DNA of 58,123 nt from Methylocaldum sp. 14B (GTDB lineage: Bacteria; Pseudomonadota; Gammaproteobacteria; Methylococcales; Methylococcaceae), in assembly GCF_002005105.1 (NCBI RefSeq), contig NZ_MSCV01000042.1, positions 1 through 58,123 of the forward strand, in the 5' to 3' direction. Positions 17,512 through 43,195 of this stretch are shown in pieces. The stretch's first letter is position 1, and the number at the start of each line of letters is the position of its first letter. The position numbers were made by a program, and so were the translations under genes. Below the pieces are notes generated by a model, which was not told where the DNA came from, did no database searches, and saw nothing but the letters and a program-made list of their open reading frames with translations.

Positions 17512-18138
17512 TTATTTCTTTTTCACTTTGGACAGCATGCCGACGATTCGGCTCTCGAAGACGATACGATCCTCGATCAATCCCTGCACGTCGTAATAGA
17601 AGATATTGCGGGCTTGATCGACGTTTTCGCACAGTATGAGCAATTGGTCGCCGGGGGCGGCGGAGCTTCGGAAGCGTGCGTTCTCGATACGCAGAAACAG
17701 CCCGACCGCAGGTTCCGCCAACCGCCGATTGGACAAGTACAAGGCCAGTTGCGCGCCGGCTTCGAGCATGAGCGCGCCGGGCATAATGGGATGCCCGGGG
17801 AAGTGGCCGGCCACCCAAAACTCGTCTTCCCTGACTTTTTTGACCGCAAGGCCGCGACGGAAGGCGTCGTCGACCCAGGCGATGTAGTCCAGCAACAGCA
17901 TTTCGCCGCGGTGGGGAATTACTTGGCTGATCATGTCGCGTCCCACTTTGGGCAAGGCGACGTCAATCTCCGCGGTAGGAAATAACGTGTGCTGCGTCCG
18001 CATCGGCTCATGGATTGCCGAGTCCAATCCCGAGTCGAGCAATTCCCGGATGCGGCTGATGAAATGACGGGTATGGATCGGAGAGTTCCGGAGAGAAAGA
18101 ATCTTATCTAGCATGACACCGCCTGCTTTTGAGACCAT
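17512..18138 (-). CDS. FabZ-like 3-hydroxyacyl-ACP dehydratase (hotdog fold)
   Basis: This 208-aa protein has the FabZ signature: IPHRGEMLLLD (about 75-84), AGHFPGHPIMPGALMLEAGAQ in which H112/H116 and E126 are the catalytic pair, and the late FRSSAAPGDQL strand. The N-terminal 60 residues are an extension beyond the usual 140-150 aa. A second ATG eight codons in (18117) is an alternative start. It is the last gene of the megasynthase operon, 3 bp after the nitroreductase-like gene. It would dehydrate a beta-hydroxyacyl chain on a carrier protein in trans, a step missing from the PKS, which has a KR but no DH domain. Confidence 0.85.
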   Translation of the reverse strand: MVSKAGGVMLDKILSLRNSPIHTRHFISRIRELLDSGLDSAIHEPMRTQHTLFPTAEIDVALPKVGRDMISQVIPHRGEMLLLDYIAWVDDAFRRGLAVKKVREDEFWVAGHFPGHPIMPGALMLEAGAQLALYLSNRRLAEPAVGLFLRIENARFRSSAAPGDQLLILCENVDQARNIFYYDVQGLIEDRIVFESRIVGMLSKVKKK

Positions 18139-18141
18139 TGA

Positions 18142-19317
18142 TCAACGAAGTACCGATTGAAGTGACCGGCGCACGGAACGCTCCAAAGGCCTAGCCAGGC
18201 CGACGCGCAACAGCATTAGCGGCACCGCCCCTGAAGGAAGACCGAGGGATTTCGCCAAACCGGGCGACCCTACGGGCGATTCGGTGGGGTACGCCAAAGG
18301 ATGAACTGCAAGTCCCTGCGCAGCGGCCGCCAGGTAAATCCGCTCTATCAGCCGTCCGCCCTGCAACCAGGCGTCCGGCGTATCCCGCTCGCTCCAGACC
18401 ACGCTCCAAAGCGGCGTGGCTTCGGCGAGCCGCTTCACTACATCGATCTCGCCTTGGCGGAACTCGGACGACACCAAATCCTCGGGGGTGGACAGGAACT
18501 CCACCCACTCCTTCACGAACCACGGGGCATCGCTGGTGAAGATGGAAATCCCGTCGCGGCTCGCTTCCCATTCCCGTCTGGAACGGCGGAACCACGACAT
18601 TGAATCTCGGTACGCCGCATCGTTCGCCACGAACTCGGCCACGGCATCGGCGGCGATCCGAACGATGGCTTCCCATTCGTGAGCGGCACCGTACCAAGCG
18701 AGGTGGGTGCCGGGAAGTTCGCCATACTCATTGAGGCTTTCCGTGAACTCGTTCCGGGAAATCGGCAATGGCTCGAACTCGGCTCGGGTGGTTTGGCGGC
18801 GGAATATGGCCGGAAACCAGGGATGGGTATTTGAGTCAGAGCGCCGCGCCAGTTCGAGCGACGCGCAGCGGCCCCCGTTTTGCAGAAACGCATCGGCCTC
18901 AGCATCGGACACGGTCGCCGCATAACCGAGTTGAGCCGCCGCGACGACCATGTTCTCCGTGGCACAGCCCAAGCCCATCAACATGAGCCGGCGGCGGGGA
19001 TCGGCCTGGCCGAGATGGCGCGCCAGATCGGCGTAGAGAACAATCCGATTGCCCAGCAGGTTGAAGGCCCAGGGTTGAGTGTTGTGAGCATTCGCGGCCA
19101 ACGTGCCGCACAACGCCACGTATTCCAAATCGGTCAGATCTCCCTTTGCCGTTTGCTCCCATGCGACGTACGGCGAGGCACTTGCAACCGCAGGGGCTGC
19201 CCTGAACAATGCGGGAAACGCGGCTGCTCCGACCGCGAGAGCGCCGGTCTGGCGGAGAAATCGCCGACGGCTCTGCAATATCGGATCGGGGCGGATCATG
19301 CTTCGTTTCCTTTTCAT
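18142..19317 (-). CDS. Tat-exported nitroreductase-like flavoprotein
   Basis: This 391-aa protein carries a twin-arginine signal (SRRRFLRQTGALAVGAAAF) cleaved near AVASA. The mature part matches the Acg/nitroreductase-like family: NAHNTQPWAFNL, the FMN-phosphate-binding-type start, then MGLGCATENMVVAAAQLGY and the late PTESPVGSPGLAKSLGLPSGAVPLMLLRVG typical of the FMN fold (shown here in parts). It lies 22 bp after the phosphopantetheinyl transferase and 3 bp before the dehydratase, so it belongs to the biosynthetic operon. A periplasmic flavoenzyme in such an operon suggests tailoring of the product after export, for example a redox step. The substrate is unknown. Confidence 0.75.
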   Translation of the reverse strand: MKRKRSMIRPDPILQSRRRFLRQTGALAVGAAAFPALFRAAPAVASASPYVAWEQTAKGDLTDLEYVALCGTLAANAHNTQPWAFNLLGNRIVLYADLARHLGQADPRRRLMLMGLGCATENMVVAAAQLGYAATVSDAEADAFLQNGGRCASLELARRSDSNTHPWFPAIFRRQTTRAEFEPLPISRNEFTESLNEYGELPGTHLAWYGAAHEWEAIVRIAADAVAEFVANDAAYRDSMSWFRRSRREWEASRDGISIFTSDAPWFVKEWVEFLSTPEDLVSSEFRQGEIDVVKRLAEATPLWSVVWSERDTPDAWLQGGRLIERIYLAAAAQGLAVHPLAYPTESPVGSPGLAKSLGLPSGAVPLMLLRVGLARPLERSVRRSLQSVLR

Positions 19318-19339
19318 CGGCCTTACCGAACTCTTTCTT

Positions 19340-20032
19340 TCATGAATTGTAGTCTGGCGCCGGCCACCACACCCCGGTGAATATGTGAGTGTCGTTCCAA
19401 CCCAAACGGCCGACCAGTCGCACTTCGTTCAGCGCGGAGCCAAAAGTCGGATCGACCACGAAAACGCCGCTCGAGAAGTCCATACGCACCGCCAGATCGT
19501 TAAAACGGGCCAAGGAACCGGCGGCCGTATACAGGCACTTGATGGCGCTTTCCTTGGCCGAAAACAGGACATAGGCGGCCAACTCGCGACAACCGTCCGG
19601 CAGCGAGTCCAACCAGGCGCGCTCTTCCGGCAAGGCGATGGAATCGATGGCACGCCAGGGGAACGGGTTTTGCCGGCATTCCACATCCACCCCTACTCCG
19701 CGAGCGAACCGAAGCCGAGTGGCCACGGCCGCTACCATGCCTTCCGTATGGCTGATGCTGCCGACGATATCCCGTCCCCAGATCGGCGCGCCGGATTCGT
19801 CCCGAAGAATCGGCGCCGGCTCGACCCCGAGATGTCGAACCGCCTTCCGCGCCAGAACGCGCCCGGTGGCGAATTCCTTCCGGCGTTTCGTTATGGCCCC
19901 ATCGACCAGCATCCGTTCTTCCTCGAACAATTCGGACGGGTCCGAGAGCTGTTCGGTCCAGGCGACGACGAATAACTCTCCGGGGAACAAACCCTCAGGT
20001 CGTCGTATCGGTTCAACGGGTATCGATGGCAT
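19340..20032 (-). CDS. 4'-Phosphopantetheinyl transferase (Sfp/EntD type)
   Basis: This 230-aa protein has the three family motifs: GSISHTEGMVAA (91-102), GVGVDVE with D116 and E118 as Mg ligands, and FSAKESAIKCLY with K160, E161 and K165. The enzyme transfers the phosphopantetheine arm of CoA to a Ser of carrier proteins. In this operon it would activate the five carrier domains of the two megasynthases. It overlaps the end of the MFS gene by 20 bp, so the two are translationally coupled. Confidence 0.93.
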   Translation of the reverse strand: MPSIPVEPIRRPEGLFPGELFVVAWTEQLSDPSELFEEERMLVDGAITKRRKEFATGRVLARKAVRHLGVEPAPILRDESGAPIWGRDIVGSISHTEGMVAAVATRLRFARGVGVDVECRQNPFPWRAIDSIALPEERAWLDSLPDGCRELAAYVLFSAKESAIKCLYTAAGSLARFNDLAVRMDFSSGVFVVDPTFGSALNEVRLVGRLGWNDTHIFTGVWWPAPDYNS

Positions 20033-21275
20033 AGTCGCTCGCGAAACTCCTGAGCCAGCGCCACAACCAGCTCACGGCCTGGCTGAACACGAGCATCCCG
20101 AACAGGGCCATGGACGGCGTAAAAAGGTGCTGGCCGCCCCCATGCTGCATGATCCATGCCGACAACCACGGGCCTCCGGCCGATCCGACGGCGAAGGCCG
20201 CGGTAAACAAAGCGGTGCCGCCGGGCAAATCGGCGCGGGGCAGGATCCTGGCCAGAAGCGCCAGGGCCAGAGCGAACACTGGCCCCAATGTCAGTCCGGT
20301 CGCGAAGGCCGCGCCTCCGGCGACGTATTCGGCACTGATCGGTTGGCCCTCCTGCCCCAGGCGTACCCAGACATCGCCGATGAGGGCGCTAACCGAGTCG
20401 ACCCGCATCAGCACCGCCAAAGCGACGATGCCTCCCATGCCGCAACCGAACAGTACACGGCGATAACCCAGCCGATCCCCCAGGTGGCTGACCGGCAAAG
20501 TGCCCAGCAATCCCCCCAGCACGAAAGCCGCCAGGTGATGGGCGGTAGCCATGGCGGTGAAACCCTGGCGCACGAGAACGGCAGGATAGAGGGTCAGCAG
20601 CGTGGCTTCCGCAAAACCATAGGCCAATACGGCCTGCACCGGAATTCCCGCCCGCAGCAGAAGTCGGCCGCTAGCGCGTTCCGGTTCGGCGCGCGCTCCG
20701 GGCAAGCCGATAGCCACCAGAACCGCAGCTTGAACCAGGAGCACGGTGGCGACAGTAAAAGGCAGATGATGGGCCAGCCCGTATAGGTACGAACCCACGA
20801 CCGGCCCGACCGCCAGCCCTATCCCGAAGCATAGACCGTAAACGCCGTTGGCAACGGCGCGGCGCTCCTCGCCGGCAAAGCAGGACAAGGCGGTTTGAGT
20901 GCCGATCATCGCGCAGGCCATGCCCAAGCCCATCAAGCCCCTTAAGGCGAACCACAATCCGATGTCCGATTGCCAAGGGAACGAAACGGCCGCAGTCGCG
21001 TATGCCAGCAGGCCCACGGCCACGACGCGGCGCAGACCGATCCGCCGCAGCGCCCGACCCGCGAAAGGCGCAGCCAGCGCAACGCAGAGAAACAACAGCG
21101 ATGCGTTGGCGCCTATCAGCACGCCGTCGACGTGGCGCTCTTCCATGAAGATGGCAACGATGGGGTTGAGGATTCCAAGCGATATCCCCAACAGCCCGCC
21201 CAGCGCATACAGCGTACCCAGAGCGACGCCCGCCAGCGGATGCTCGGGCGTCGGGGGGCAGGATTTAGCCCCCAT
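20013..21275 (-). CDS. MFS transporter
   Basis: This 420-aa protein has about 12 hydrophobic helices and a clear MFS motif between helices 2 and 3 (GRALRRIGLRRVVAVG) plus the symmetrical one in the second half (SHLGDRLGYRRVLFG). It is probably an inner-membrane exporter for an intermediate or the product, or for a precursor; the direction cannot be told from sequence. Its first three codons (ATGGGGGCT) lie inside the terminal repeat of a MITE, so the element provides its start region. It overlaps the phosphopantetheinyl transferase gene. Confidence 0.88.
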   Translation of the reverse strand: MGAKSCPPTPEHPLAGVALGTLYALGGLLGISLGILNPIVAIFMEERHVDGVLIGANASLLFLCVALAAPFAGRALRRIGLRRVVAVGLLAYATAAVSFPWQSDIGLWFALRGLMGLGMACAMIGTQTALSCFAGEERRAVANGVYGLCFGIGLAVGPVVGSYLYGLAHHLPFTVATVLLVQAAVLVAIGLPGARAEPERASGRLLLRAGIPVQAVLAYGFAEATLLTLYPAVLVRQGFTAMATAHHLAAFVLGGLLGTLPVSHLGDRLGYRRVLFGCGMGGIVALAVLMRVDSVSALIGDVWVRLGQEGQPISAEYVAGGAAFATGLTLGPVFALALALLARILPRADLPGGTALFTAAFAVGSAGGPWLSAWIMQHGGGQHLFTPSMALFGMLVFSQAVSWLWRWLRSFASDYAIDTR

Positions 21276-21737
21276 TTCTCACCTCCGTCCAATCGCGATG
21301 AGTATGACGTAGGATGTGCTGAACGAAGTGACAAATCGGCAGGGCGAGACGCAACGCGACGAGCGGGCAGGCCAGGGACGGTCTGCCCCGGACTCGCGAG
21401 CGAAGCGGGACAGCGTAGCGTGGCGAGGCCGAGTTGCACGGCGAAGCCGCCCGAAGGGTGCCGGACCGGGACGGTCCGGCATGAACCGCATCGTTCGCGA
21501 TTGATGCCTGTCCTGAGCCTAGTCGAAGGGCGCTTCGTGCCTCAGCGCATCCTACAAGCTCCGCCTCGCCCTTCGCGCCGGCTCGACGTCGTATCGTAGG
21601 TCGGGAATCCTTTCCCGACACACGCTCGTCGGCAAAGGATTGCCGACCTACCACGACACCGCCGCTCGGTCCGTGCGGCGCGCCCCACCGGCGTCTGGGC
21701 GCCCTCGCGACGAAGGGGGATAAGAAATGCGGGCTAG
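21265..21737. mobile_element. MITE (family C), long intergenic copy
   Basis: The ends are inverted: TTAGCCCCCATTTCTCACC at the left and, read inverted from the right, CTAGCCCGCATTTCTTATC. The right part (about 21560-21733) is the same sequence as the elements inside the NRPS-like gene and the RND gene, but with a 56-bp palindromic insert (21596-21651, GTAGGTCGGGAATCC ... GATTGCCGACCTAC) of family A. The stop codon of the NRPS-like gene (21734-21736) and the start codon of the MFS gene (21273-21275) both lie within the terminal repeats. No other gene is present in 21276-21733. Confidence 0.8.
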
Positions 21738-24700
21738 GCATGCCGACGCTCCGTGGTCAGGTTGTCCGGTTTCCGGGCTCCCGATATCGTCTCCAGGGCG
21801 GCCATTTTTTCCGAGCCGAACCAGTACATGTCTTGACGGCCGTAGACGCACAGGTGCTGGCCGGTTATCCAGTCGGCCTCCGACGACGCCAGGAAGGCCA
21901 CCGCGTCCGCAACCGCGTCGACCGGGATCGATCGCGCCCGGTATCCCGGCGGCGTCATGTCGGTGTCCACGAACGCCGGGCAAACCGCGTTGATCTGCAC
22001 ATTGTGCGGCTTCAGTTCCTCGCTCAGCGACTTGGTAAGGCCCAGAACCGCATGCTTGGAGGCGGCATAGGCGCTGAACAGGGGGTAGCCGATGTGGCTG
22101 GAATCGGAACCCAGATTCACGATTTTCCCCCTGCGCCGCTCGATCATGTGCGGCGCCACGCTCCGACACAGATGATAGACGCCGAACAGGTTGACCTCGA
22201 CGATGCGCTTCCACTCATCCGGCGAGGAGGTCGCCAAGGCGGACATTCCGGTGATTCCGGCATTGTTGACCAGCACGTCCAGATGACCGAAGCGGCGGAG
22301 GACTTCGCTCACCAAATGTTGCACCTCCGCGAGGTTCCGTACATCCGCCGGAGTTACCACAGCGGTGCCACCACTGCCGGCGATTTCCCGGGCAACGGCT
22401 TCAAGCCCCGCCCGATCGCGGGCGGAAAGCGCCACGGCAACGCCCTGACCGGCGAGTTTCAGGGCGATCGCGCGGCCGATACCGCGGCTCGCACCGGTAA
22501 CCAGCGCCACTTTGCCTGCCCAGCTGCCGGAGCGTGCCGACAGCGGAATTTCTTCCAGCCGGGGCGTTTTCAGCGGTATCAAGGCGGGAGGCTCGCCCGT
22601 CATCACCGCCGGCAAACTCGCGAGGCGAAGCCCCGCCGGCGAATTCGCGTTTTCGCTCAGGTCGGCCAGCAACTCCAGGTAGCGCAGGCCGAGGCGCTTG
22701 ATGGTCTCCCCCTTGAAAAAGTTCTGGGAATAATTGATCTCGACGTGGAGTTCGCCTTCGACCATGGAGAGGAAGATCTCGATGAGGGAGATGCGCTGCT
22801 GGCTCGGGGGCGAGTAGCGCTGATCCCAATCCGTATCGACGAACTCGAAGATGTTGGATTTCGGTAAGCTCCGGTTTCCCAAATAGTTGACGCGCACCGG
22901 GGTCAAATTGTTGTCCGGATAGATGTGCGCGGGCAGCTGGCGACCTACCACATCGAAACTGACGCCGTTCAACGGTGCTTCGGAAAAACCGCGGACAATC
23001 CGGCCGATCAATTCACTCCAGCTTTCCCCGGAGACCAGATCCACGGCAACCGGGAAATTGACGGCGTAATTGCCCACGCTTTCGTACAAAGCCAGGCCGT
23101 TGCCCAGATCGCGTCCGTGCGAGCGATGGCTGAGAACCACCCAAGACTGGCCGGTCCATTCGGACATGAGCCGGTACGCCGCCGCCAGCAGGAGATGATA
23201 GAGCTGACCCTGGAGATGCTTGCGCGCCTCGTTCAGCGCATGAAAGTCCGAGTGGCTGAGTAGAAAGCGCTCGCTGGCGGAAGAAGCCTCGTCATTCGCG
23301 CCGAGATGATGGTCGACCGGCACCTGGAACGCGTACTCCCGGCTCGGAAAACGAGTACGCCAATACTCCGCATAACGGCGCTGCGCCTCCTGCTGCGCCG
23401 GTTGGGCCAACCACTGCACGAAATCGAAATACGACGGCGGCAGAGCGGGAAGTTCCGGCGTCTGATTGACCAGCAACTGCCCGTAAATCTGCCAAAGCTC
23501 TCGGAACAGTATGCTGTTGCTGACCAGATCACTGATCATGTGGTGACCCACGATAGTCAGATCGTATGCGTTCTGATGCTCTTTGATGACGAGCACCCGC
23601 CACAGCGGAAACCGGTCGATGCGCAGTTCATCCGTGATTTCCTTCACCAGCCGCCGGATTTCCGCGCTGCGCTGTTCGGCCGTGAGGTGGGAGCCGTCGT
23701 AGAAATCGAGGCTGAATTCCGCCTCGGGCAGGGCCACGGTCTGCCGCCATTCGCCGTGCTCCTGGTAAAACAGGGAACGCAACACGGGATGGCGCCGGGC
23801 AAGGACGTCGATGGCCTCGCGGAAAACGTCGACATCCAGCGGCTGCAAATAGCGGAATCGGGTGTAGCCGGCCCATTGGTAAGGAGGCTGGAAGAAGTGG
23901 GTGATCCACAATTGAGCCGGCCCCAGGGGCAAACCGGCCGTCGGATCGGCGAACGGCAGCTTCGCCTCCGGCGCGCCGGGCACCGCCTTGCCGGGGGGCG
24001 CGTTGCCGGTTTCCGTCCACTGTTTGAGAACCTTGCGGTCCAGTTTGCCGTTGTGATTTTTCGGCAAAGCGTCGGCCTGACGAACCTCGTGAGGCAGCAT
24101 GTACTCGGGAAGTTGTTTCGCCAGGGCGGAGCGTAGTTCTTTCAACGGAATTTCGCGGCCGACCAGCCAGGCCACCAGCCTCTTGTGCCCGTCGGGTGTG
24201 TCGACGGCGAGCGCCGCAGCTTCGCGTATACCCGGCAGAGCTCCGAGAGCGGTTTCGATCTCGCCCAGCTCCACCCGGAAACCGCGAATCTTGATTTGAC
24301 TGTCGATGCGCCCGTGGAAGTCGTAGCTGCCGTCCGGCAACCGCGAGACCAGATCGCCGGTACGGTATAGCCAGCGGCTGGGTATGCCGGAGAAAGGATT
24401 GTCACGGAAACTCTCGCGGGTCCGCTCCGGATCGTGGAGATAGCCCTGAGCCAACTGCACGCCGCCAATCCAGAGTTCGCCCACGCCGCCCTCCGGTACG
24501 GGGCGCATGTTCTCGTCCAGCACCAGCAGGTAGACCTCCGGCATGGCCGGCCCGATCGGGATGCGAAGCGTCCCTTCCCCCGGACGGGAGTGCATCAGAT
24601 GTGCCGTCACGTCGATCGACGCTTCGGTCGGGCCGTACAGGTTCGCGAGGCCCACCCGGTCGCCGCAGCGGTCGAACCAGCGCTGCACATAAGCCACTGG

Positions 24701-34400: not shown

Positions 34401-37400
34401 ACCTTGATCAAACTGGCGATTCCCGCGGCGCTGAGCAGATGCCCGATGTTCGCCTTGACCGATCCGATCGCGCAACTCTGCCGGGCCAAGCCGCCAAAGG
34501 CGTGGGTCAGGGCGCGGATCTCGCTCGGGTCTCCCAGCGGAGTACCGGTGCCATGGGCTTCGACGAACTGTATGGAAGCGGGATCGATCTTGAACTGGCG
34601 GTATACGGCATCGATGACCTGGCGCTGGCCGTCCGGGTTTGGCGCCATGACCCCAAGGGATTGCCCGTCGTTATTCACCGCCGAGCCGCGAATCACCGCC
34701 AGCACCGGGTCGCCGTCCGCCAGCGCGCGGGACAGCGGTTTGAGCAACACCGCACCGGCGCCTTCGCCCAGCACGAAGCCGTCGGCCGAAGCGTCGAAGA
34801 CGCGGCACCGGCCGCTAGCCGACAGCGCGCCGGCGCGCTGGAACAACAGGAACGGCAAATGGCTCAGGGTGAGGCTCACGCCGCCGGCAACCGCCATCGA
34901 GCATTCGCCCTGGCGCAAGCTCTGGCATGCCAGATGCACCGCGACCAGTGACGAGGAACAGGCGCTGTCGATGGTGAAACTGGGACCTTTCCAGTTGAAG
35001 GTATGGGAGACACGCGCCGCGATCATGTTGAGCAGATTGTCCACCGCCGTATTCACGTGCAGCGAGAACCGCCCGAAGCGGGATTGCCACTCCTTGAGCA
35101 GTTCGTCGCGTTCGCTGGGCGGCAGGCGACGCAGACTGGCGAAGCTCTCCAGGGCGTCGCCGCACAAGGCGTTGACCAGGAATTCCATGTGATTGTTGTG
35201 GCTCGCGCCGATGAACAAACCGACGTCGGCGCCATCCAGAGCCGGCCTGGAGTAGCCGGCGCGCTCCAGGGTCTCGGCGGCCACCTCCAGGAACAAACGC
35301 TGCTGCGGGTCCATGTCGGTGGCTTCTTCGGGGCTGATGCCGAAGAACTCTGCGTCGAAGGCGTAGACGTCGCGCACGAAGCCGCCGCGCCACCAGTCCT
35401 CCCGCCCGCCTTGCGGCAGCGCGAAACGGTCCGCGGGCACGGCGCCGATGGCTTCCCGGCCCTGGCTCAGAAGTTCCCAATATTCCTCCGGCGAATTGCT
35501 CCCCGGAAACCGGCAGGCCGTGCCGATGATCGCGATCGCGTCTTCCTGCGCGTCGCCGGTGTCCGACGCGCTGGCCGCCACGGCGGAGCCGGGCCGTCCG
35601 CCCAGCCAGTCCGCCATCTGACGGACGGTGTGACAACGCAGCAGCAGTTCATGGTCCAAAGGCCGGTTCAGCCGGTCTTCCAGCCGCCCCAAAATCTGCA
35701 CCGCCTTTATGGACGTGCCGCCCAACGAACGAAAGGCTTGGTCCGGATTGATCCTAGCGGCCGGAAGGCCGAGCACGTCCGCCCAGACCTCCCGGACCAG
35801 ATCCGTCAAATTTTCGGTGCCGGAAACGGTCGATTCGAGCGCACCGCTCACCAGATCGACGCCGCAATGGCGTACGGCGTCGTAGTCGCCCCGCTGGAAC
35901 TCCTCCAAGAGCTTGTAACGCTGGAGCTTTCCGCTCGTGGTTTTGGGAATGGCTTTGACCGGTACGACGTAATCCAGCGCGACGTTAAGCACCTGGTTGA
36001 CCCTTTGCCATACCTCGGCCATGACGGCCCGCCCATCGGGACTGTCCGGGTTGCGTATCGCGAGGAAGATCGCCGTTTTCTCCTCGCCCGAGTCGGGGTC
36101 CTGCCAACCGCAGGCGATGGTCTTTCCGGGGTCTACGCCGTTAACCGTTTCCGCCTGCGCTTCGATGTCGTGGGCATAAAAATTCTGCCCGTTGATGAAG
36201 ATAATGTCCTTGGCCCGTCCGCTGATGCACAGGCGCCCGTCGATCATGAAACCGAGGTCGCCCGTATCCAGCCACCCGTCGTGAAATGTCTCGGCATTCG
36301 CGGAAGGGTTGTTGTAATAACCTCCGGTCACATTGCGGCCGCAGATATGGATGCGGCCGACCCGGCCTTCCGGAAGCACCTGCCCGTCGCCGTCCACGAT
36401 GCGGATCCCGCAGCCCGGCACAGGGTAGCCTTCGTCAACGACCGCGATGGAGTTTTCGCCATGGGGCTCGGCGCCTGCCACCCGCCCCTGCGCCAATTCC
36501 TGGCGATCCAGCCAGTGCACCCGCGGAAGCGTTCCGGGCGGAGGGAAGGTCACCGCCAGACTCGCCTCGGCCATGCCGTACACCGGGTACATGGCCTCGG
36601 GCCTGAGCCCGCACGGGCCCAGGGTCGTCATGAATTCCTCGATGACCGCAGCGGCAATCGGTTCCGCGCCGTTATAAATGTTTCTGACGCACGACAAATC
36701 CCAGCGCTTCAGGTGGTCCGGTTTCAGTTTGCCGAGCAGATGGCGGTAGCCGAAATTGGGAGACCCCGTTACTGTCGAGCGGTGCTCGCTGATTTTTTCC
36801 ATCCATAGCGTGGGTTTGCGAACGAAGGTGAACGGGGTCAGGTTCACCTGCTCGATCCCCAGGGCCATGGGAACGAAATGGAAACCGATGAGCCCCATGT
36901 CGTGGTGGTACGGCATCCAGCTCAGGAAGGCGTCGCCCGGACCGTGTTCGGCTCCGAAGATGATGCCCTCCAGATTGGTGATCAGATTGGCGTGACTCAC
37001 CATCACGCCCTTGGGGGTCCCCGTGCTGCCGGAACTGTACTGTATGAATGCCAGGTCATCGGGCCGGGCGAGATCCGGATCCGCGAGCGTAGAGGGTTCC
37101 GCAAGGTCCGTAACCGCCTCGATACGAATCGAGTTTTCCCCCAGAGCCTGCCGCACCACGGACTGCTGCTCCGCCATATAGGCATCGGACAACAACAGCG
37201 GTCGGTCCAGCTGTTTCCAGATCGCCTTCAGCTTCATGAGAACCGCATTGTCGTCCGTGAGCGATGGCGGATAGGCCAGCGGCGCGGGAATGATGCCGCC
37301 CATCACGGCCGCCCAGAAGGTCACCACGAAGTCGTGGCTTTCCCGGAACATCAGCATGACCGGATCGCCTCGCCTGAGCCCCAGGGCCCGCAAGGCGCCG

Positions 37401-37621
37401 AGCCGCATCCGCGCCTGCTCTGCAATGGCCTGATACGAGAAGCGGGTCTCGTGACGCTCGTCCCGGACGAAGACAACCCCGCGATCGGTGGCCGCGGCGC
37501 GCAACAAGATGTAGGCCAGGTTTTCCTCCGGGCATAGCGTTCCCGGAGCGGGACGGGGCTCGATCAAGGCCGCCTTGTCGGCAGGCCGGCCGGTGAACAG
37601 TTCGATGAGTGGCTTGGACAT
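28427..37621 (-). CDS. FAAL-PKS megasynthase: FAAL-ACP-KS-AT-KR-ACP-KS-AT(degenerate)
   Basis: Domains of the 3064-aa protein: fatty acyl-AMP ligase (1-595; YSSGSTGTPKGVMVSH near 197, MPYHHDMGLIG, GSPNFGYRHLL, YPVYGMAEASL); carrier (Ser near 636, LGGTSIKAV); KS1 (690-1120; Cys near 888 in DSACSSSL, HGTGTPLGD, NIGHLLSAAG); AT (1237-1530; GHSVGEY near 1327, HAFH near 1428, which indicates malonyl-CoA); KR with its structural half (about 1550-2075; GGIAGIGAE, YSSIAA, LTDYAAANAF); carrier (Ser near 2144, LGVDSKGAV); KS2 (2215-2640; Cys near 2423, NTACSAAL, HGTGTSLGD, SIGHMLSAAG); and a decayed AT (about 2690-2990) in which the GHSxGE active site is replaced by WAEGALS. The enzyme would activate a free fatty acid as acyl-AMP, load it and extend it. 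No DH or ER is present; the FabZ-like gene may supply dehydration. The gene starts 18 bp after the RND gene. Confidence 0.94.
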   Translation of the reverse strand: MSKPLIELFTGRPADKAALIEPRPAPGTLCPEENLAYILLRAAATDRGVVFVRDERHETRFSYQAIAEQARMRLGALRALGLRRGDPVMLMFRESHDFVVTFWAAVMGGIIPAPLAYPPSLTDDNAVLMKLKAIWKQLDRPLLLSDAYMAEQQSVVRQALGENSIRIEAVTDLAEPSTLADPDLARPDDLAFIQYSSGSTGTPKGVMVSHANLITNLEGIIFGAEHGPGDAFLSWMPYHHDMGLIGFHFVPMALGIEQVNLTPFTFVRKPTLWMEKISEHRSTVTGSPNFGYRHLLGKLKPDHLKRWDLSCVRNIYNGAEPIAAAVIEEFMTTLGPCGLRPEAMYPVYGMAEASLAVTFPPPGTLPRVHWLDRQELAQGRVAGAEPHGENSIAVVDEGYPVPGCGIRIVDGDGQVLPEGRVGRIHICGRNVTGGYYNNPSANAETFHDGWLDTGDLGFMIDGRLCISGRAKDIIFINGQNFYAHDIEAQAETVNGVDPGKTIACGWQDPDSGEEKTAIFLAIRNPDSPDGRAVMAEVWQRVNQVLNVALDYVVPVKAIPKTTSGKLQRYKLLEEFQRGDYDAVRHCGVDLVSGALESTVSGTENLTDLVREVWADVLGLPAARINPDQAFRSLGGTSIKAVQILGRLEDRLNRPLDHELLLRCHTVRQMADWLGGRPGSAVAASASDTGDAQEDAIAIIGTACRFPGSNSPEEYWELLSQGREAIGAVPADRFALPQGGREDWWRGGFVRDVYAFDAEFFGISPEEATDMDPQQRLFLEVAAETLERAGYSRPALDGADVGLFIGASHNNHMEFLVNALCGDALESFASLRRLPPSERDELLKEWQSRFGRFSLHVNTAVDNLLNMIAARVSHTFNWKGPSFTIDSACSSSLVAVHLACQSLRQGECSMAVAGGVSLTLSHLPFLLFQRAGALSASGRCRVFDASADGFVLGEGAGAVLLKPLSRALADGDPVLAVIRGSAVNNDGQSLGVMAPNPDGQRQVIDAVYRQFKIDPASIQFVEAHGTGTPLGDPSEIRALTHAFGGLARQSCAIGSVKANIGHLLSAAGIASLIKVVLALQHRQMPGNINLNEPSRQIDFAKTPFLPLTSTRVWTVPEGVARRAAINSFGFGGTNCHLVVEEGVAREKPKGVWPYHLLLLSARNRSALNRTSEHLAAYLERRPALDPADVCATLNSRRNHYACRDALVVESLGELANGLKGLEKRQPTETESPPPIAMMFTGQGSQYPGMAAQLYELWPRFRRAMDEAAAAFDPWLEAPLLTAIYHPEANPEQLARTEITQPAMFAADYALGRALLELGVRPAALIGHSVGEYVAACLAGAVDLADAAKVIAARGRLMSELPGQGGMLAVFARADELSAHLEDYRGRVWFAANNGSHQVVAGHRDAVAELARILEIEGRRVKPLRVSHAFHTPLLEPMLEPFSKVLAEVEWHAPRLPIISNITGDWLGANGPDANYWLRHVLEPVRFEQGIRAAYAGGIRTFVECGPDSVLTHLVATVLAGERVTLAALLDRRRENARTFLDALGTLYTSGVNLDWRMLGEDFPGRRIPLPAYPFERKVYRLPPLPPAESQGQALLHRWEWPQTPRGDSVPLPPGALLVFAGEGQAAWLAALRIRVGPDRPLLVVRPGAGFSADGGNFTVNHLDAGDYRQLWQSVLADYGAPAAVVHAWNADLTGAPRDDEAALHSGLFSLTFLAQAMHEPSPIKPCRILWLTRRAHVLDSLEPAPDPYQLLGITFALGLGEENEHLVVKAADLDTAPAAPDEDVDTILAELGTAEFGGEILAIRRSLRFQRRFGAVYNETGVSEPLLKDGDTCLITGGIAGIGAETALALARSARINLVLTGRRPLPARQEWDALPADHPDAPRVALIRQLESLGATVDYHAADAADSEAMTKAIRRLRERFGRLDGIIHSAGVVDRNVLRATDKSVESIRSVLAPKVKGSWLLHQLTADQPLKFFILYSSIAATCPLWAASLTDYAAANAFLDGFAEWRNRSGAKGRTLALNWSLWDEKGMGRDAGLMALVRSKGLRALVPETACAALSRALAIPGASVVHVIDFEAEAESPAPAAAPAAHSPVPEPVEPAPRAALAVQAADWLELVRQLTGAYVNVAAEQIDSGRKFHELGVDSKGAVEIAEKLAAILRQHVTPTLLFEFQSPLDLARHLENQHGPEFLARSQEPGPARTITITTTAASRSDRRTDDRIAIVGMSLRVPGSASSDEYWNMLAEGRCEIREVPRDRWSPEDYFDAANRHTHGSYSKWGGFLERAHEFDPQFFGISPREAKAMDPQQRIFMEVAYEALQQSGYAGEGRAERLGVFVGCEQNYYAEHFINQQRYCRLRDRIRSTDWYRQLPMGARADWDDALREVLQPAELLSDAIAGNGLNEIACRLSHWLNVRGPSLIVNTACSAALVATHLACQSLRSGESRIAVAGGAYLNMGSTPFVFLSRVNAMSPDGRCYPFDRRANGMVLGEGVAALVLKSLADAMADGDYIHGVILGSAMNNDGHSSGLTAPNPAGQAECIARAYRESRVDPATVSYVECHGTGTSLGDPVEVEGMTKGFRQFTDQRGYCGIGSVKSSIGHMLSAAGIPSVIKVLLAMRHDYLPPTVNYSEPNPYIDFDASPFYVVDSHGRPWPGNGQPRRAGVNAFGFGGTNCHLILEEPPRAVDQPTGMDRVPLSDPQLLYLTARTESALRAYAKALHAHLEENPSISAEQVACSLNGAQREMNFRAAAVVRGREDLLAVLASVAGSGKHDRLLSGRANPKQPPAMAWVFDNCPWPEGTADTLARRYSVFADAWTDFRAVLPPGHETVPRLQAAAEQYALGRLLRELELVPAGLWAEGALSPVAAAVAGWLSPASAAALLNGGDAVPENGAGDQIWRIPIHTIDGKISVDNPEWAIRLRSAARNPSESVQPPTDARLRTVLLGGKGGEGKGLVRMIGAAPGDESLLTALARLYIEGLRLDTRPLCSPVLTRVLLPAYPFERKEFLYDPPPVDVEETADIAAAPEPAVAHSQGTTASKEPQQNIATALLDELNRIILPREPLNEHS

Positions 37622-37639
37622 AAGGCTTCTCCGACAGCG

Positions 37640-40330
37640 TCAATTCGAGTTTTCACCCATGCGCCCGGCTGGACTCGCGGTGAACACGGTGCCCCCTCCG
37701 GCACCAGCGACCGGCGGGTGTCCTGTTCCGGCATAGTCGGCATCCAGGGCAGTGAACTCGCTGCGCCCGGCGACGTCGGCGGCGGAAGGAACGGGGTGGC
37801 CATGGCCGCCCTTCCCCGGGTCGCTTTCGCTCGCCCCGGCTAGCCCGGATTTCTCGCACCCCTTCGTCGCGAGGTCGTCGAGACGCCGCTGTGGCGTGCC
37901 GCACGGACCGAGCGGCGGCGAAGGCGTAGCCGACTCTACGTCGAGCCGGCGCGAGGGAGTACGGTGCGCCACAGCGAGTGGATCGGCGTCCGCAGTAGGA
38001 GGGGTGTGAGAAATGCGGGCTAGGAGACGGCGCGGCTTATCGATCAGGGACAGGACGGCCGGCGTGATGGACAGGTCGGCCGCCAGGGCGACGACCAGGA
38101 ACAAGCCCACCAGCAAGCCCTTGTAAACGTTCGGCATGAAATCGCCGAACAGAAACACGCAGAACGCCAGAACCAGCACCGCCGTGGTGAAGGTGATGGA
38201 AATGCCCACGTCGGAGAACGCCTCCCCGATCGCCTCGCGCGCGGTGTGCCCGGCCCGCCGCGCCTCCCGGTAATGGCTGAAGAAATGGATGGTGTCGTCG
38301 ACGGCGATACCGTAACCGATGCTCGCCACCATGATGGTGCCGATGTCCAGGTAGATGCCGGCCATGCCCATGAACCCCAGGGCAACGAGGACAGGCAGAA
38401 AATTGGGCAGCGTGCTGGCGAGGCCCAGCAGCCAGGAACGGAACAGCAGGCCGATGAGAACGGTCACCCCTACCACCGACACGGCGAATGAACTGATGAG
38501 GCTGTCTGAGACATTGTTGCCCATGTTGGTGTACAACACGTCGCGGCCGGTGAACTCGACCTTTACGTTCTTGAGATTCTTGGCTGCCCAGTCGCTGATG
38601 ATGTCCATGTTTTCGCGGCTGGCGCGGGTCGGGACCAGGGCGCGGATCACCGTCACGCGACTCGCGGAATAATCGACGTTGAAACGGTCGTTGATGTCCT
38701 GACCCACCGGCACCGAGAGGCTGTAGAGGAACAAATATTGGGCGATCGAATCGTTGTCATCGGGAAGGGTATGGAAACTGGGGTCGTCCTCGTGCAGGGC
38801 GCGATTGACATTGCGCAGCACGGTGGACAGGGAGTAGACGTTGCTCAGCCCGCCCGGCGCTTCCTTGGCCAGGTACTGCGTGAAGGCATCCAGGTCGCGC
38901 ATATACTCCACGGTCTTGATGGAATCCGGGCCCTTGCCGCGTACGACCAGTTCGTACACCGCCCCGCCCGAGCCCTTCTCCTCCAGGAAATGGACCGATT
39001 CGGCGAACCAGAAGCTGGAGCGGAAATAGGACACCGGATTGGAATCGACCGTGAGCATCGGCAGGAAAGCCGCAAAGATGCCGATGAAGACGAGCCAGCC
39101 CAGGACCACCTGCCTGCTGCGGTGTATGGACGCCCAACGCAGCCGATCCAGAAAACCCTTGAACCACTCGGAATCGAAAACGGGACGCGGCGTCTTTTCC
39201 GGGAAGAAACTCAACAGCGCCGGCAGCAGGGTCAGAGTCAGGAACAGAATCAGCAAAGTGCCGCAGCCGGCCTCGAAACCGAACAGCTTGAGAGGAATGA
39301 TGGTGGCCGTGAAATAGAAGGAGAAGAAACCGATCGCCGTCGTGACCGAGGTTATGACAATCGCGCTCAGGTTGATCCGCAGCGACTCCTTGACGGCGTC
39401 CTTGGAATTCAGACCGTTGCGCTTGGCTTTGACGAACATCGCCGCCATATGGACGCAGCCCGCCACGGCGATACCGATGAGCAACTGCGGCGTCGTGGTG
39501 GTGACCACGTTCAGTTTATGGCCCACGAGTCCGGTAAGGCCCATGGCGCCGATCACGCTCAGGAGAGAGATGCCGAGGGACAGCAGGACTCCGAGGATCG
39601 AGCGGAACAGGATGAACCACACCACACCCAGAATGACCAGCAACAGTGGGACCAAGAATCCCATATCCTTCTGCGCCACCTGGTCGAAAGCCTGGTCGGT
39701 GATGGGACCGCCGGCTAGGTAAAACTCGTAGCCGCTCCGGGCTTTCTCCTCGTCCAGGATTTGCATCAACTGGTTGTAGACCTTCGCCGGCAACTCGGGC
39801 GTCACGGCGACCGGCGCGATGCGCGCTCGAATGATGCCGACTTTCCGATCCGGGGAGATCAGAGAACCGGTCACCAGCGGGTCCTGGTCGATATAACTCC
39901 GGGCTGCCGCGATGCGCTCCGGGGTGACCGGCTTGTCGCTCGGGAACAGCGCCTCGGCGCTGAAGCCTTCGGCATCGCCCCGCAACGCCTGGAAGTTGGA
40001 AAGCGAATCCACCCGGATCACGCCGGCTACGTGCCAGAATTTGTCGGTAAGACGCTGGATGGCTTCGAGGGGCTTCGGCTGAAGAATCCCCTGCGGCTCT
40101 TCGAACGCCACGACGAACATATCATCGTGGCCGAACTCCTTGACGAAAAGATCGTAGCTTTTTAGATAGGGATCCTCCTCGTCGAACCAGATGCGATAGT
40201 TCGAGTCGAAGGACAGCCGTCCCAGAAACCCACCCAGAAAGACGATCACGGCAAGGCTCGCCAGGATCACCCAGATCCGGTTCCTGATGACCCAGTTGGC
40301 GTAAGCCGTTACCAGTTTCTTCTCACGCAT
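37640..40330 (-). CDS. MMPL/HAE3-type RND lipid transporter
   Basis: This 896-aa protein has the two-repeat RND layout: one N-terminal helix (VIRNRIWVILASLAVIVFLGGF), a large periplasmic loop, five helices including the MGLTGLVGHKLNVVTTTTPQL and GFFSFYFTATIIPL segments, a second large loop and a second helix bundle (IGYGIAVDDTIHFFSHYREA, an RND helix-4-like segment with conserved acidic residues). HAE3/MMPL proteins such as HpnN and MmpL move lipids out of the inner membrane. The cytoplasmic tail after ITPAVLSLIDKPRRLL is replaced or extended by a MITE-encoded stretch (about residues 770-830) and then a short Gly-rich end. Its place between the outer-membrane barrel gene and the PKS, with 18-21 bp gaps, makes export of the PKS/NRPS product its likely job. 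Confidence 0.9.
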   Translation of the reverse strand: MREKKLVTAYANWVIRNRIWVILASLAVIVFLGGFLGRLSFDSNYRIWFDEEDPYLKSYDLFVKEFGHDDMFVVAFEEPQGILQPKPLEAIQRLTDKFWHVAGVIRVDSLSNFQALRGDAEGFSAEALFPSDKPVTPERIAAARSYIDQDPLVTGSLISPDRKVGIIRARIAPVAVTPELPAKVYNQLMQILDEEKARSGYEFYLAGGPITDQAFDQVAQKDMGFLVPLLLVILGVVWFILFRSILGVLLSLGISLLSVIGAMGLTGLVGHKLNVVTTTTPQLLIGIAVAGCVHMAAMFVKAKRNGLNSKDAVKESLRINLSAIVITSVTTAIGFFSFYFTATIIPLKLFGFEAGCGTLLILFLTLTLLPALLSFFPEKTPRPVFDSEWFKGFLDRLRWASIHRSRQVVLGWLVFIGIFAAFLPMLTVDSNPVSYFRSSFWFAESVHFLEEKGSGGAVYELVVRGKGPDSIKTVEYMRDLDAFTQYLAKEAPGGLSNVYSLSTVLRNVNRALHEDDPSFHTLPDDNDSIAQYLFLYSLSVPVGQDINDRFNVDYSASRVTVIRALVPTRASRENMDIISDWAAKNLKNVKVEFTGRDVLYTNMGNNVSDSLISSFAVSVVGVTVLIGLLFRSWLLGLASTLPNFLPVLVALGFMGMAGIYLDIGTIMVASIGYGIAVDDTIHFFSHYREARRAGHTAREAIGEAFSDVGISITFTTAVLVLAFCVFLFGDFMPNVYKGLLVGLFLVVALAADLSITPAVLSLIDKPRRLLARISHTPPTADADPLAVAHRTPSRRLDVESATPSPPLGPCGTPQRRLDDLATKGCEKSGLAGASESDPGKGGHGHPVPSAADVAGRSEFTALDADYAGTGHPPVAGAGGGTVFTASPAGRMGENSN
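37840..38023 (-). mobile_element. MITE (family C) inserted in frame in the RND transporter gene
   Basis: The inverted ends CTAGCCCGGATTTCTCGCAC (37840 onward) and, inverted from 38023, CTAGCCCGCATTTCTCACAC match at 18 of the 20 positions shown. The inserted length is 180 bp (60 codons) if the flanking TAG/CTAG is a target duplication. It encodes ARISHTPPTADADPLAVAHR and SRRLDVESATPSPPLGPCG, the same peptide as in the NRPS-like protein linker. Confidence 0.87.
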
Positions 40331-40351
40331 AGCATCCCGCCGAAAATTGAA

Positions 40352-41674
40352 TTAAAAACTGTATCTCAGCCGCACCCGAAAGGCGCCGTCACCGTCTTCA
40401 TCCTGATCCGGGAAAACGAAAAACCCGAAAGAGTCCGTATACGTCACCTCGAACCGGAGCTGCTCGACGATGTCGCGGGCATATCGGGCTCGCACGAGCC
40501 AGGTGCCGGCCGGCTTGAAATTGTTTATGGCCCCGACCTCGAACTCCTGACGGGCCAGGTCGTTGACCGTCAAACGAAAACCGGTGAAAAGGCTGTTCTC
40601 GAGTATCTGGAATCTGACTTGCCCGTCACCGACTTTCCCGAAATATTCGGTAAACAGCGTCAAATCGGATAGGCCGACAATCGCGGGAAAGGTGTATTCC
40701 AACCCCGCGGTATAAAAAAATCCCGGCGCAAGGAGTTCGGTCTCGGGAAACCGATAGAATCCCTCTCCCTTGACGATCAGGCTCTCGATAACTTTGGTGA
40801 ATTCAAAACCGAGGCGGTTGGATTTGTAGGGGGTCCCGATCAACTTCGTCCCCGTCTCGTTCATATCGAAAATCGGCAGCCTTTCGATGACGTTCGCCCA
40901 ACTCAAGGCAAAATCGAAGCCGTCGCCTGCATAGAAGTAGCGGATCGCCCACTGGTCCTCGAATCGTTCCGCCGGTTCGCGAATCGGAGCACCGCCGCTG
41001 AGACTGTAGAAGTTATCCGGCCCCGGAAAGCTGTCGGGAATGTAGTAGGGAATCGAATACGCACTGATATCGCTGTTATCGAATTTCCAACGGAATAGAG
41101 CCGCAGGTATACCGATTTTGCTCGGCTCGATCACATCGTCCCGAAAATCCCTAGGATTGAGTACGTCTATTCGGTTTACGCTCTCCATCTGGCCCCAGGT
41201 GAAAATCTGATTTCCAATCCTAAAATCCCAGTTTTCTGTGCTGTATTCGACCCACGCCTCGTTGAGGCGAATAGTATTTTGCCGATCATCCATGAAGTCA
41301 TAGCGGGCAAACGGCGCTATAGCGGCGCGCCAGTTTTCTCCAATGCTTACTTCCGATCGAAAGTCGAGTCGTAATGCGTGATTCTGCTCGATCTGCCCAG
41401 GAAAAAGAGGCGTCTCAGGATACTGATAAGTCTCGTAATCGAAGCTGCCCGCAATATTCAGCTTTTCCATCCAAGAACCGATCCCGGATAGACCTTCTGA
41501 ACTGGTTTCGCCCTCACAAAACCCAAATTCCGGTGACAACATCAAATAAAACCCCAAAGCAGTTATTAGCAGCTTTAACAAGAATGCCCCTAATTCAATT
41601 CCAAATCCTGCACTTGCTGAAAAAGCCTGCTGAAAGGGCATGGTCTTTTCCGTGAAAAATAGAGTTTCAGCCAT
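40352..41674 (-). CDS. Outer-membrane beta-barrel protein (DUF1302-like)
   Basis: This 440-aa protein has an N-terminal hydrophobic export segment (FLLKLLITALGFYLML), then alternating amphipathic strands rich in aromatic residues: NHALRLDFRSEVSIGENW, RLNEAWVEYSTENWDFRIGNQIFTWG in parts, and a last strand GAFRVRLRYSF ending in Phe, the usual signal for outer-membrane assembly. The IGNQIFTWGQMESVN segment resembles the RxGRQxxxWG pattern of DUF1302 porin-like proteins. The start is unclear; Met12 (41641) would give a more normal signal peptide. It is 21 bp upstream of the RND gene and probably forms the outer-membrane end or receptor for the exported lipid. Confidence 0.75.
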   Translation of the reverse strand: MAETLFFTEKTMPFQQAFSASAGFGIELGAFLLKLLITALGFYLMLSPEFGFCEGETSSEGLSGIGSWMEKLNIAGSFDYETYQYPETPLFPGQIEQNHALRLDFRSEVSIGENWRAAIAPFARYDFMDDRQNTIRLNEAWVEYSTENWDFRIGNQIFTWGQMESVNRIDVLNPRDFRDDVIEPSKIGIPAALFRWKFDNSDISAYSIPYYIPDSFPGPDNFYSLSGGAPIREPAERFEDQWAIRYFYAGDGFDFALSWANVIERLPIFDMNETGTKLIGTPYKSNRLGFEFTKVIESLIVKGEGFYRFPETELLAPGFFYTAGLEYTFPAIVGLSDLTLFTEYFGKVGDGQVRFQILENSLFTGFRLTVNDLARQEFEVGAINNFKPAGTWLVRARYARDIVEQLRFEVTYTDSFGFFVFPDQDEDGDGAFRVRLRYSF

Positions 41675-41809
41675 CCGATGCTTTCGTTAGGTATATTCTC
41701 GATCGGAGGTTTTTAACAGACGCTCAATTACCTTTGGCAAGACCAAGGAAAGATGGCCAGATCGCTGGAGTAACTAACGTCCGTCCAAAGTACCAATGCC
41801 GTTAAGTTA

Positions 41810-42215
41810 AGCCGTCATTCCAATCGCAAACGGTCGTTCTGGGAGCGCCAGAACGCCCCTTCCGGCAGGGATTGCTCACCCCATCCCTGGGGTTCGTCCT
41901 ACGGACCGTGCTCCGCACGTCCAAATTTGCTCCTGGCAAATTTGTGCCGGACAAATCGGCAGGATGGCCGATTTGCACGCGAAGCGCCCGTAGGGTGCCG
42001 CACAGGGACTGTGCGGCATGAATCCAGAGCACAGGGAAGTGACACGCCTCTGCCATCCATGGCTTCTGGACCCCGGCATTCCAATCGCAAACGGTGTCTT
42101 CGGGAAGGGCGTGGCCGGCGCTCCCGGCCAGGCCGTTTGCGATTGGAAGGGTCATCCCAGCGCTCCTGGGATGACCGTTTGCGATTGGAGCACCGAAGCC
42201 ACCCTTCCCTGCCGG
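41810..42215. repeat. Composite dispersed repeats (families B and D) inside the operon
   Basis: CCAATCGCAAACGGT occurs directly near 41821 and 42080 and inverted near 42131 and 42174, making large hairpins with the intervening GGAGCGCC segments. Between them, ACAAATCGGCAGG through GGGTGCCGCACAGGGAC-TGTGCGGCATGAA matches a segment at about 21325-21490. No gene is present in 41675-42304, so the LolA-like gene and the barrel gene are separated by 630 bp of repeat. Confidence 0.75.
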
Positions 42216-42304
42216 GGTGACGTCATTCGCCTTAATTTAACGGCATTGTCCGAAGTACAACTCTTCTTGTTTACCGGTTTTATAGAAATGCCCAAGACTC
42301 TATT

Positions 42305-43195
42305 TCAACGCGGCGATTCAAGCCCCCGAACCGTAAACATGCTCGCATCGGTGGGAATTTTCAGCTTGATTTCGTCAAAGCTAAGCGTTGATGCTTTCTT
42401 GGTTTGAACGTTTCTGACCGTAATTTTTTTGGAGCGCCAGATTCCCTCAACTTGGTGATGCCCCTCAAGGAAACGCTCTTTGATAAGCTCCCCTTTTCGA
42501 TCGAAATACTGGCTTTTTGCCTCTTGCAAATTGTCCTTATAGCGCCATCTAATAATCTTCGAATATCCCGAGTTTGAGTTTTTCGGCGTCCGCTCCATGA
42601 CATAGCAGTCTTTTCCATCAACCGTATCGTCACCGAGATACTTGAAGTTGTACTTTTCGAATTGACGGACTACGAGATCTTCATAGGCAAATTCAGACCC
42701 CATGAAAGAGCCGCTTTTGTTGGAGGATGCAATCCGCTTGGCCCGCTTGAGTGCCGGCAAGTACAGCCATTGATCGTCGTCTTCGGCGCCCTTTTCATAG
42801 GTAAGCAGAGCGGTATCCTTGATATCCGGCGGAAAAGAGAACCTTACGAGTGTCTTGTCGTGCCTATCCGGTTCCTCATGCCCCCAGAAATCCAATTTCC
42901 TCTGGGATTCCTGGCCTTCCGCATTGATCAGGGTCAAGGTCATCTTTCGGAATTCGCCGATGTAGCCGGCCTGGATTTCGTCCGCCTTCCGCTCGATATC
43001 GAGCGCCTCGATACCGGGCGTCGGCGGGCGCATATCGGCATTTGCGAGCATTGAATACTGAAGGAACAGAGTTCCTGACAGAATCAAAAGAATTCCGCGG
43101 ATAAAACTCGAAACCGAGTCAGAACGGGCGACGTGAGCCCAATTGGCAAATAACTTCGGAGTGAAGTTAAGCGTACGATTTTCGATATGGCTCAT
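42305..43195 (-). CDS. LolA-like periplasmic/outer-membrane lipoprotein-sorting family protein
   Basis: This 296-aa protein has an N-terminal hydrophobic export segment (FIRGILLILSGTLFLQYSMLANA, split by one charged end). The mature part matches the outer-membrane lipoprotein-sorting (LolA-like, PF17131-type) family: MTLTLINAEGQESQRKLDFWG, TLVRFSFPPDIKDTALLTYEK, DDQWLYLPALKRAKRIASSNKSGSFMGSEFAYEDL, cited here in pieces. The SGSFMGSEFAYEDL block is highly characteristic. Such proteins are often encoded next to HAE3/MMPL RND pumps and DUF1302-type barrels. It would carry a hydrophobic molecule across the periplasm. The gene is first in the operon, 630 bp of repeats before the barrel gene. Confidence 0.85.
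   Translation of the reverse strand: MSHIENRTLNFTPKLFANWAHVARSDSVSSFIRGILLILSGTLFLQYSMLANADMRPPTPGIEALDIERKADEIQAGYIGEFRKMTLTLINAEGQESQRKLDFWGHEEPDRHDKTLVRFSFPPDIKDTALLTYEKGAEDDDQWLYLPALKRAKRIASSNKSGSFMGSEFAYEDLVVRQFEKYNFKYLGDDTVDGKDCYVMERTPKNSNSGYSKIIRWRYKDNLQEAKSQYFDRKGELIKERFLEGHHQVEGIWRSKKITVRNVQTKKASTLSFDEIKLKIPTDASMFTVRGLESPR

Follow-up and report, generated by a model that had tools for sequence, protein, structure and literature searches.

A fatty-acid-primed PKS-NRPS gene block of Methylocaldum sp. 14B and its neighbouring RND pump, LolA-fold carrier and outer-membrane barrel: a candidate lipid export locus

Lipid synthesis genes that lie together with a resistance-nodulation-division (RND) pump and a LolA-type carrier are already known in Gram-negative bacteria. 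The portions of the literature available to us describe aryl polyene clusters (ApeL, ApeM and ApeN of Escherichia coli), in which lipid-type synthesis genes accompany an RND pump, a LolA-like protein and a further Lol-like protein and whose product sits in the outer membrane (PMC8253772); the methanotroph operon BstABC of Methylococcus capsulatus, which combines lipid synthesis with an MMPL-family RND pump and carriers that there bind sterols (PMC10942540); AmeABCD of Castellaniella defragrans, with a HAE3 pump, a DUF1302 outer-membrane protein and a LolA-superfamily carrier (PMC6394551); and mycobacterial PpsE-MmpL7, where a polyketide synthase (PKS) lipid, phthiocerol dimycocerosate (PDIM), is paired with an MMPL-type RND pump and a coupling of synthesis and export has been proposed (PMC1238737). 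In another group of clusters, lines of PKS and nonribosomal peptide synthetase (NRPS) modules start with a fatty acyl-AMP ligase (FAAL) and an acyl carrier protein (ACP) domain (review PMC11837247). How Gram-negative bacteria bring lipids built on giant synthases to their surface is poorly understood. Here we describe a block of nine genes from Methylocaldum sp. 14B that places such a synthase line beside a pump, a carrier and a barrel (together called the trio below). The block occupies positions 17512-43195 of the analysed window, the whole stretch of 58,123 nucleotides of contig NZ_MSCV01000042.1.

On balance we lean towards the interpretation that the FAAL-primed PKS-NRPS makes an N-acyl-serine-type lipid and that the MMPL/HAE3-like pump, the LolA-fold carrier and the barrel move this product outward. 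The first-pass annotation of the window had listed nine minus-strand genes with named domains in a tight order. The genes and domains were borne out (open frames; Pfam, NCBIfam and motifs). The tight order held at five junctions but not at three wide gaps (about 160, 460 and 630 bp), the intergenic distances from FabZ to LolA being 3, 22, -20, 458, 162, 18, 21 and 630 bp.

The domain orders FAAL-ACP-KS-AT-KR-ACP-KS and ACP-ACP-C-ACP-A-C-SDR were confirmed by Pfam and a motif scan, which found the active-site motifs of KS, AT, KR, ACP, C, A and SDR (the cysteine motif of KS1, DSACSSS, was read by eye). The second C domain (C2) carries HHMISDL, with L where G is usual. Against solved structures the ligase domain scored 333-344 bits with 6ulw/6ulx, 318 with McyG (4r0m), 255 with 3kxw, 250 with 3pbk, a chain named fatty acyl-adenylate ligase, and 201-217 with 5d6j and 7wua, chains named acyl-CoA synthase; the best malonyl-CoA-type ligase (4gxq) gave just 98 bits. 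We take 3kxw, 5d6j and 7wua to be FAALs. By these structure-sequence scores the ligase is nearer to fatty acyl-AMP ligases than to CoA ligases, and an ACP comes next at residues 608-673. By eye, the segment after YGMAEA resembles what we take to be the FAAL-specific N-terminal insertion. In NCBIfam the long-chain-fatty-acid--CoA ligase model scored 389 bits and the fatty acyl-AMP ligase model 369, both below cut-off. The AT motif is HAFH, presumably a sign of malonyl specificity. A stretch after KS2 resembles, by eye, a dead AT without the GHSxG serine, and Pfam calls one AT only.

No carrier domain was seen in the linker of about 37 residues between the A domain and C2, and therefore the A domain most likely loads the upstream ACP; we know of no standard module in which it does so. 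We read the A-domain code as DIWHISLIDK, with positions placed by eye on alignments, and eight of its ten residues are identical with what we take to be a serine code, DVWHLSLIDK. The FAAL-like start and the serine-like A domain would fit an N-acyl amino-acid lipid, the type of product proposed in the first-pass annotation. Among the accessory enzymes, the nitroreductase passes the NCBIfam Acg-family model and begins with a Tat-like signal, SRRRFLR (by eye), and the phosphopantetheinyl transferase is the only match to 4PPT_N in the genome.

The AlphaFold model of the carrier (mean pLDDT 86) has the LolA/LolB fold. It superimposes on 3bk5 with a TM-score of 0.95 by target (rmsd 1.2), and the range over 3bk5, 9tp6 (LolA3 of Porphyromonas) and 4z48 (a DUF1329 protein) is 0.91-0.95 by target. 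The barrel matches DUF1302 weakly, above the Pfam cut-off, and its sequence gave no match to solved structures; its model (mean pLDDT 76) has about 18 long strands and matches AlgE and porins at TM-scores of about 0.5. Its start is likely TTG at 41581, because the related genome G005, our sister genome for comparison, has an in-frame stop upstream. We considered and rejected a pseudogene for the G005 barrel, since that stop sits upstream of a plausible TTG start. In the pump, MMPL was found in two stretches above the Pfam cut-off; the best NCBIfam model was HAE3 (TIGR00921; 183 bits, below the cut-off of 352), and the match to the BstA model was weak (30.7 bits, cut-off 1400). The nearest solved relatives are the RND transporter 5khn/5khs, HpnN (6wu0) and MmpL5; the available part of one source names 5khs HpnN (PMC10942540).

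From these parts we infer the substrates, the order of steps, and the direction and destination of transport. The FAAL would adenylate a fatty acid and load it on the ACP, and KS1, AT and KR would add and reduce one malonyl unit, which the stand-alone FabZ-like enzyme may dehydrate. On the tandem ACPs KS2 may then extend the chain a second time, one or two malonyl units thus preceding serine; the A domain would load serine on the third ACP, the first C domain (C1) would couple the acyl chain to serine, and C2 with the SDR domain would complete the product or set it free. In the periplasm the product may be altered further by the Tat-type oxidoreductase. Taken out of the inner membrane by the MMPL/HAE3-like RND pump, the product would be ferried through the periplasm by the LolA-fold protein and handed into or across the outer membrane by the barrel. 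The parts themselves, and the analogy with aryl polyenes (PMC8253772) and methanotroph sterols (PMC10942540) as described in the available text of both sources, suggest the outer membrane as the destination.

Table 1. Genes, domains and repeat copies in the block (positions of the window)
Feature	Position	Strand	Evidence and remarks
LolA-fold periplasmic carrier	42305..43195	-	LolA_like PF17131, Pfam 194 bits; N-terminal signal by eye
Outer-membrane beta-barrel, distant DUF1302 family	40352..41674	-	Pfam DUF1302 33 bits (cut-off 23); likely start TTG 41581
MMPL-family RND pump, nearest HAE3	37640..40330	-	Pfam MMPL 131 bits; repeat copy at residues ~770-830
FAAL-ACP-KS-AT-KR-ACP-KS megasynthase	28427..37621	-	Pfam, NCBIfam, motifs; AT-like relic after KS2
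PKS domain FAAL	~35882-37492		
PKS domain KS1	34202-35542		
PKS domain AT	32969-33913		
PKS domain KR	31538-32131		
PKS domain KS2	29354-30982		
ACP-ACP-C-ACP-A-C-SDR megasynthase	21734..28264	-	Pfam, motifs
NRPS domain C1	~25985-27283		
NRPS domain A	24044-25573		
NRPS domain C2	22637-23932		
NRPS domain SDR	21839-22513		
MFS transporter	20013..21275	-	Pfam MFS_1 138 bits
Sfp/EntD-type phosphopantetheinyl transferase	19340..20032	-	Pfam 4PPT_N + ACPS
Acg-family FMN oxidoreductase (Nitroreductase), Tat-like signal	18142..19317	-	NCBIfam NF047509 204 bits (cut-off 199)
FabZ-like hot-dog dehydratase (FabA-like)	17512..18138	-	Pfam 74 bits; motif HFPGHPIMPG
Dispersed repeat copy, inter-ACP linker of NRPS, read in frame	27653..27940	+	
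Dispersed repeat copy, RND C-terminal region (residues ~770-830), read in frame	37841..38023	+	
Dispersed repeat copy, two matching pieces, NRPS-MFS gap	21561..21736	-	

The block was present in two of the four genomes of the genus examined. Eight of its nine genes are collinear in G005 with 84-91% protein identity, and dN/dS between the window and G005 was 0.067-0.187 across these eight (the NRPS from residue 199 on). The block genes are under purifying selection by this measure, and because of these values the block is no chance array. Its flanking genes in the window encode a glycerophosphodiesterase and a Fic protein, neither of which had a match within the 60 kb of G005 compared. The phosphopantetheinyl transferase gene is gone from G005: 4PPT_N had no match in that genome, and blastn detected a remnant of the 3' end before the oxidoreductase gene (~3278820-3278925 of G005:C1), so that its absence is probably a secondary loss. 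In G005 the carrier-barrel gap spans about 180 bp if the upstream start is used and 260 bp with the likely one.

We searched the 311 genomes of the order for both megasynthases. The FAAL-ACP-KS region (E up to 1e-60, best two candidates per genome scored) had some match in 157 genomes, and its only close orthologue beyond the window was in G005. Some match to the A-C2-SDR region (E up to 1e-35, best three candidates scored) was obtained in 151 genomes; among the matches listed, the whole query was spanned in G005 only and the others covered just the SDR end. The linkage of the export genes to the PKS, which the first-pass annotation had proposed to check in related genomes, was thus found in both genomes with the megasynthases. 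The barrel search of 38 family genomes gave a match in six (the window's own included), with a close orthologue in G005 only (86%). A Methylovulum metagenome-assembled genome (MAG; G593, taken to be SCST01000521.1) shares the orthologous trio and its gene order, with identities of 77-81% (carrier), 59% (barrel) and 69-70% (pump), on a contig that ends within the pump gene. The orthologous FAAL-ACP region was not found there (best 36%), and as the MAG is fragmented this does not establish absence. A scan of genome contigs with the single pump sequence gave no match; one with a three-sequence alignment, resting on two short peptides, picked up a single distant Campylobacterales match besides the Methylovulum MAG. 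The 5.62-Mb host genome also encodes a methane/ammonia monooxygenase A family protein (AMO, PF02461, 428 bits), and because of this protein and an order shared with the Methylovulum MAG the host is taken to be a gammaproteobacterial methanotroph.

RND, LolA and barrel genes form a widespread module, in most places with no PKS beside it. Of the 369 class genomes, 112 (that of the window among them) contained barrel relatives at E up to 1e-8. Among 20 class loci chosen by high rank and long contigs, 16 had both RND and LolA-like genes, one LolA only, one an RND gene about 7 kb off and two neither, and a PKS lay beside the barrel in one (L133). The pump was found at E up to 1e-40 in 91 of the 311 order genomes. 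We sampled 60 order pump loci, favouring long contigs and spreading over genera, with some genomes taken twice; the trio was called by phmmer with the window proteins, so distant partners may be missed. All three genes were detected at 26 loci, pump and LolA only at 18 and the pump only at 16. Seven of the 60 stretches held a KS/AT protein, five with the trio (L138, L139, L146, L147, L178) and two with the pump only (L145, L148); ligase-like open reading frames near L154 and L104 were not scored as PKS. Since most of the trio and pump loci are without a PKS, the cargo of the trio elsewhere usually must be something else.

Outside the 60-locus count stand some order loci that do have a pump, namely G007 (L115), which has the trio and no PKS, G016 (L116/L134/L172) and a second G005 locus (L119/L135); L170 and L171 are outside it too. 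In G016, PKS/NRPS-type genes lie further off from the trio: contig G016:C250 (L134, L172) carries RND, LolA and barrel together with an AT/nitronate-monooxygenase-type protein, a cupin and a KS-ACP-sulfotransferase-condensation protein. At about 4877001-4907000 of G005:C1 (L135, L119) we observed weakly matching RND, LolA-like and barrel genes beside a ligase and two megasynthases, one of them KS-C-A and the other with an A domain.

A different arrangement recurred at the five trio loci with a KS/AT protein and at class locus L133 (= L096), where phmmer detected an alpha-oxoamine-synthase-like protein adjoining the PKS, which is of a type unrelated to that of the block. The two PKS scanned with Pfam (L139 and L133) are KS-AT-DH-KR-ACP. 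Four of the six alpha-oxoamine-synthase-like enzymes were run in NCBIfam and matched BioF, Kbl and serine palmitoyltransferase models, none above cut-off; a phosphopantetheinyl transferase was found at three of the six loci (L139, L146, L178). This second recurring cluster, a reducing PKS with a BioF/Kbl/serine palmitoyltransferase-like enzyme and the trio, possibly makes an exported sphingoid-like lipid, and its recurrence suggests that exported specialised lipids form a wider family in the order. In the pump tree, built by a quick method and with long branches that leave exact placement unsure, the window, G005 and G593 formed one clade (support 100) apart from the clade of the pumps from those five trio loci, and L133 fell elsewhere again. 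PKS linkage therefore probably arose more than once.

One dispersed repeat has 15 matching pieces genome-wide, five of them in the window, and resembles palindromic elements read as protein. At both in-gene sites of this repeat G005 is shorter; its pump has 823 residues, and that of the window is 73 residues longer. The 458-bp and 630-bp gaps both contain repeats. Between carrier and barrel, positions 41819-42189 hold inverted as well as tandem repeats of 42-51 bp that resemble a small element of mobile or palindromic type. GC content is 0.49-0.52 in carrier and barrel (42308-43195, 40355-41581) and 0.60-0.65 in pump and synthases (21737-40330), and dS is higher in carrier and barrel. We rejected a 158-residue conserved gene at 21265-21741, which had no family match and overlapped the repeat copies. 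Promoter and terminator scans gave no signals above shuffled sequence. Outside the block, 14374-15240 encodes a secreted-looking protein whose C-terminal tail, of the VPAAFWLLASALAGM...RR type, resembles by eye a PEP-CTERM sorting signal; it had no Pfam match.

Several points weigh against the export of an acyl-serine lipid by the trio. G005 lacks the phosphopantetheinyl transferase, and the top-scoring NCBIfam ligase model carries the name of a CoA ligase. The linkage of PKS and trio seen here rests on two related genomes; 53 of the 60 order pump loci (among them the Methylovulum contig, cut short within its pump gene) and 19 of the 20 class barrel loci have no PKS nearby, which weakens the case, and the window pump sits on a deep branch separate from the other PKS-linked pumps. 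The contrast in GC content and dS hints at a different history for carrier and barrel. The Gram-negative parallel to PKS/MmpL export put forward in the first-pass annotation is not new in kind given the aryl polyene (PMC8253772) and methanotroph sterol (PMC10942540) precedents, in the text of them available to us. Taken as a whole, the earlier interpretation is partly supported.

The main rival reading is a small metabolite that is secreted freely through the MFS transporter and/or the trio, such as a serine-derived 3-acyl tetramic acid, or a lipopeptide released as an antibiotic, signal or metallophore. We judge this rather unlikely. The beta-keto chain that KS2 would make could, once on serine and given the terminal C domain, cyclise to a tetramic acid. 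The MFS gene within the block is a second possible export route, which also counts against transport by the trio, and AmeABCD, with its DUF1302, DUF1329 and HAE3 proteins, is described in the accessible part of its report as efflux to the outside (PMC6394551). However, a dedicated LolA-fold carrier and an MMPL/HAE3-like pump suit poorly soluble lipids, and Pfam detected no thioesterase or receptor family among the proteins scanned. It seems distinctly improbable that trio and synthases are chance neighbours or handle different cargoes, the trio carrying a housekeeping lipid. The many loci without a PKS and the composition of carrier and barrel would agree with this, but pump and PKS are separated by just 18 bp, order and strand are kept in G005 where the flanks are not, and pumps of other clades are linked to a PKS as well. 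We give very little credence to a cluster that is decaying or silent in Methylocaldum sp. 14B. The pump, the linker of the NRPS and the gap between NRPS and MFS do carry repeat copies, and the 630-bp gap holds other short repeats; both in-gene copies nevertheless keep the frame and are located in a C-terminal region or a linker, all nine genes are open and dN/dS is low.

We therefore retain the synthesis of an N-acyl-serine-type lipid and its export by the trio as the preferred interpretation. With the suspected parts in one unit, the block in two genomes of one genus is a compact test case. More tentatively, the trio might serve Gram-negative bacteria as a portable export module that, within the methanotroph order, came to lie on separate occasions next to two or more unrelated lipid synthases (the FAAL-PKS-NRPS acyl-serine line and the reducing PKS with a BioF/Kbl/serine palmitoyltransferase-family enzyme), with synthesis coupled to outer-membrane delivery as proposed for MmpL7 and with an NRPS A domain that loads an upstream carrier; we regard this extended proposal as less likely than not.

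The FAAL-PKS-NRPS version with the barrel, as a full set, did not turn up in the literature searched (subscription papers and biosynthetic gene cluster databases such as MIBiG were outside that search), in line with the first-pass annotation, which knew of no such described system. A term search of the main text of the review on FAAL-primed clusters (PMC11837247) found no MmpL, RND, transporter or outer membrane, and that of a methanotroph cluster survey, within the main text available, no Methylocaldum, PKS or hybrid (PMC11964084). The accessible part of a paper on hybrid PKS-NRPS lipids mentions RND once, beside the zeamine clusters of Dickeya (PMC13291983). PpsE-MmpL7 belongs to an actinobacterial envelope, and the available text names no LolA-fold or beta-barrel partners (PMC1238737). 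AmeABCD is tied to monoterpene metabolism, its carrier is a DUF1329 protein and it has an extra periplasmic component, AmeC; a PKS goes unmentioned in the part of the report available (PMC6394551). The cargo of BstABC is sterols, and the BstA model fits the window pump poorly. BstB and BstC belong to other protein families. We rejected an aryl polyene cluster as the identity of the block, which has multidomain PKS/NRPS proteins with a FAAL starter and no discrete enzyme set. As far as the available description goes, the aryl polyene clusters encode discrete ketosynthase, dehydratase, reductase and ACP genes and no FAAL/PKS/NRPS megasynthase, and they have the LolB-like ApeN where the block described here has the barrel.

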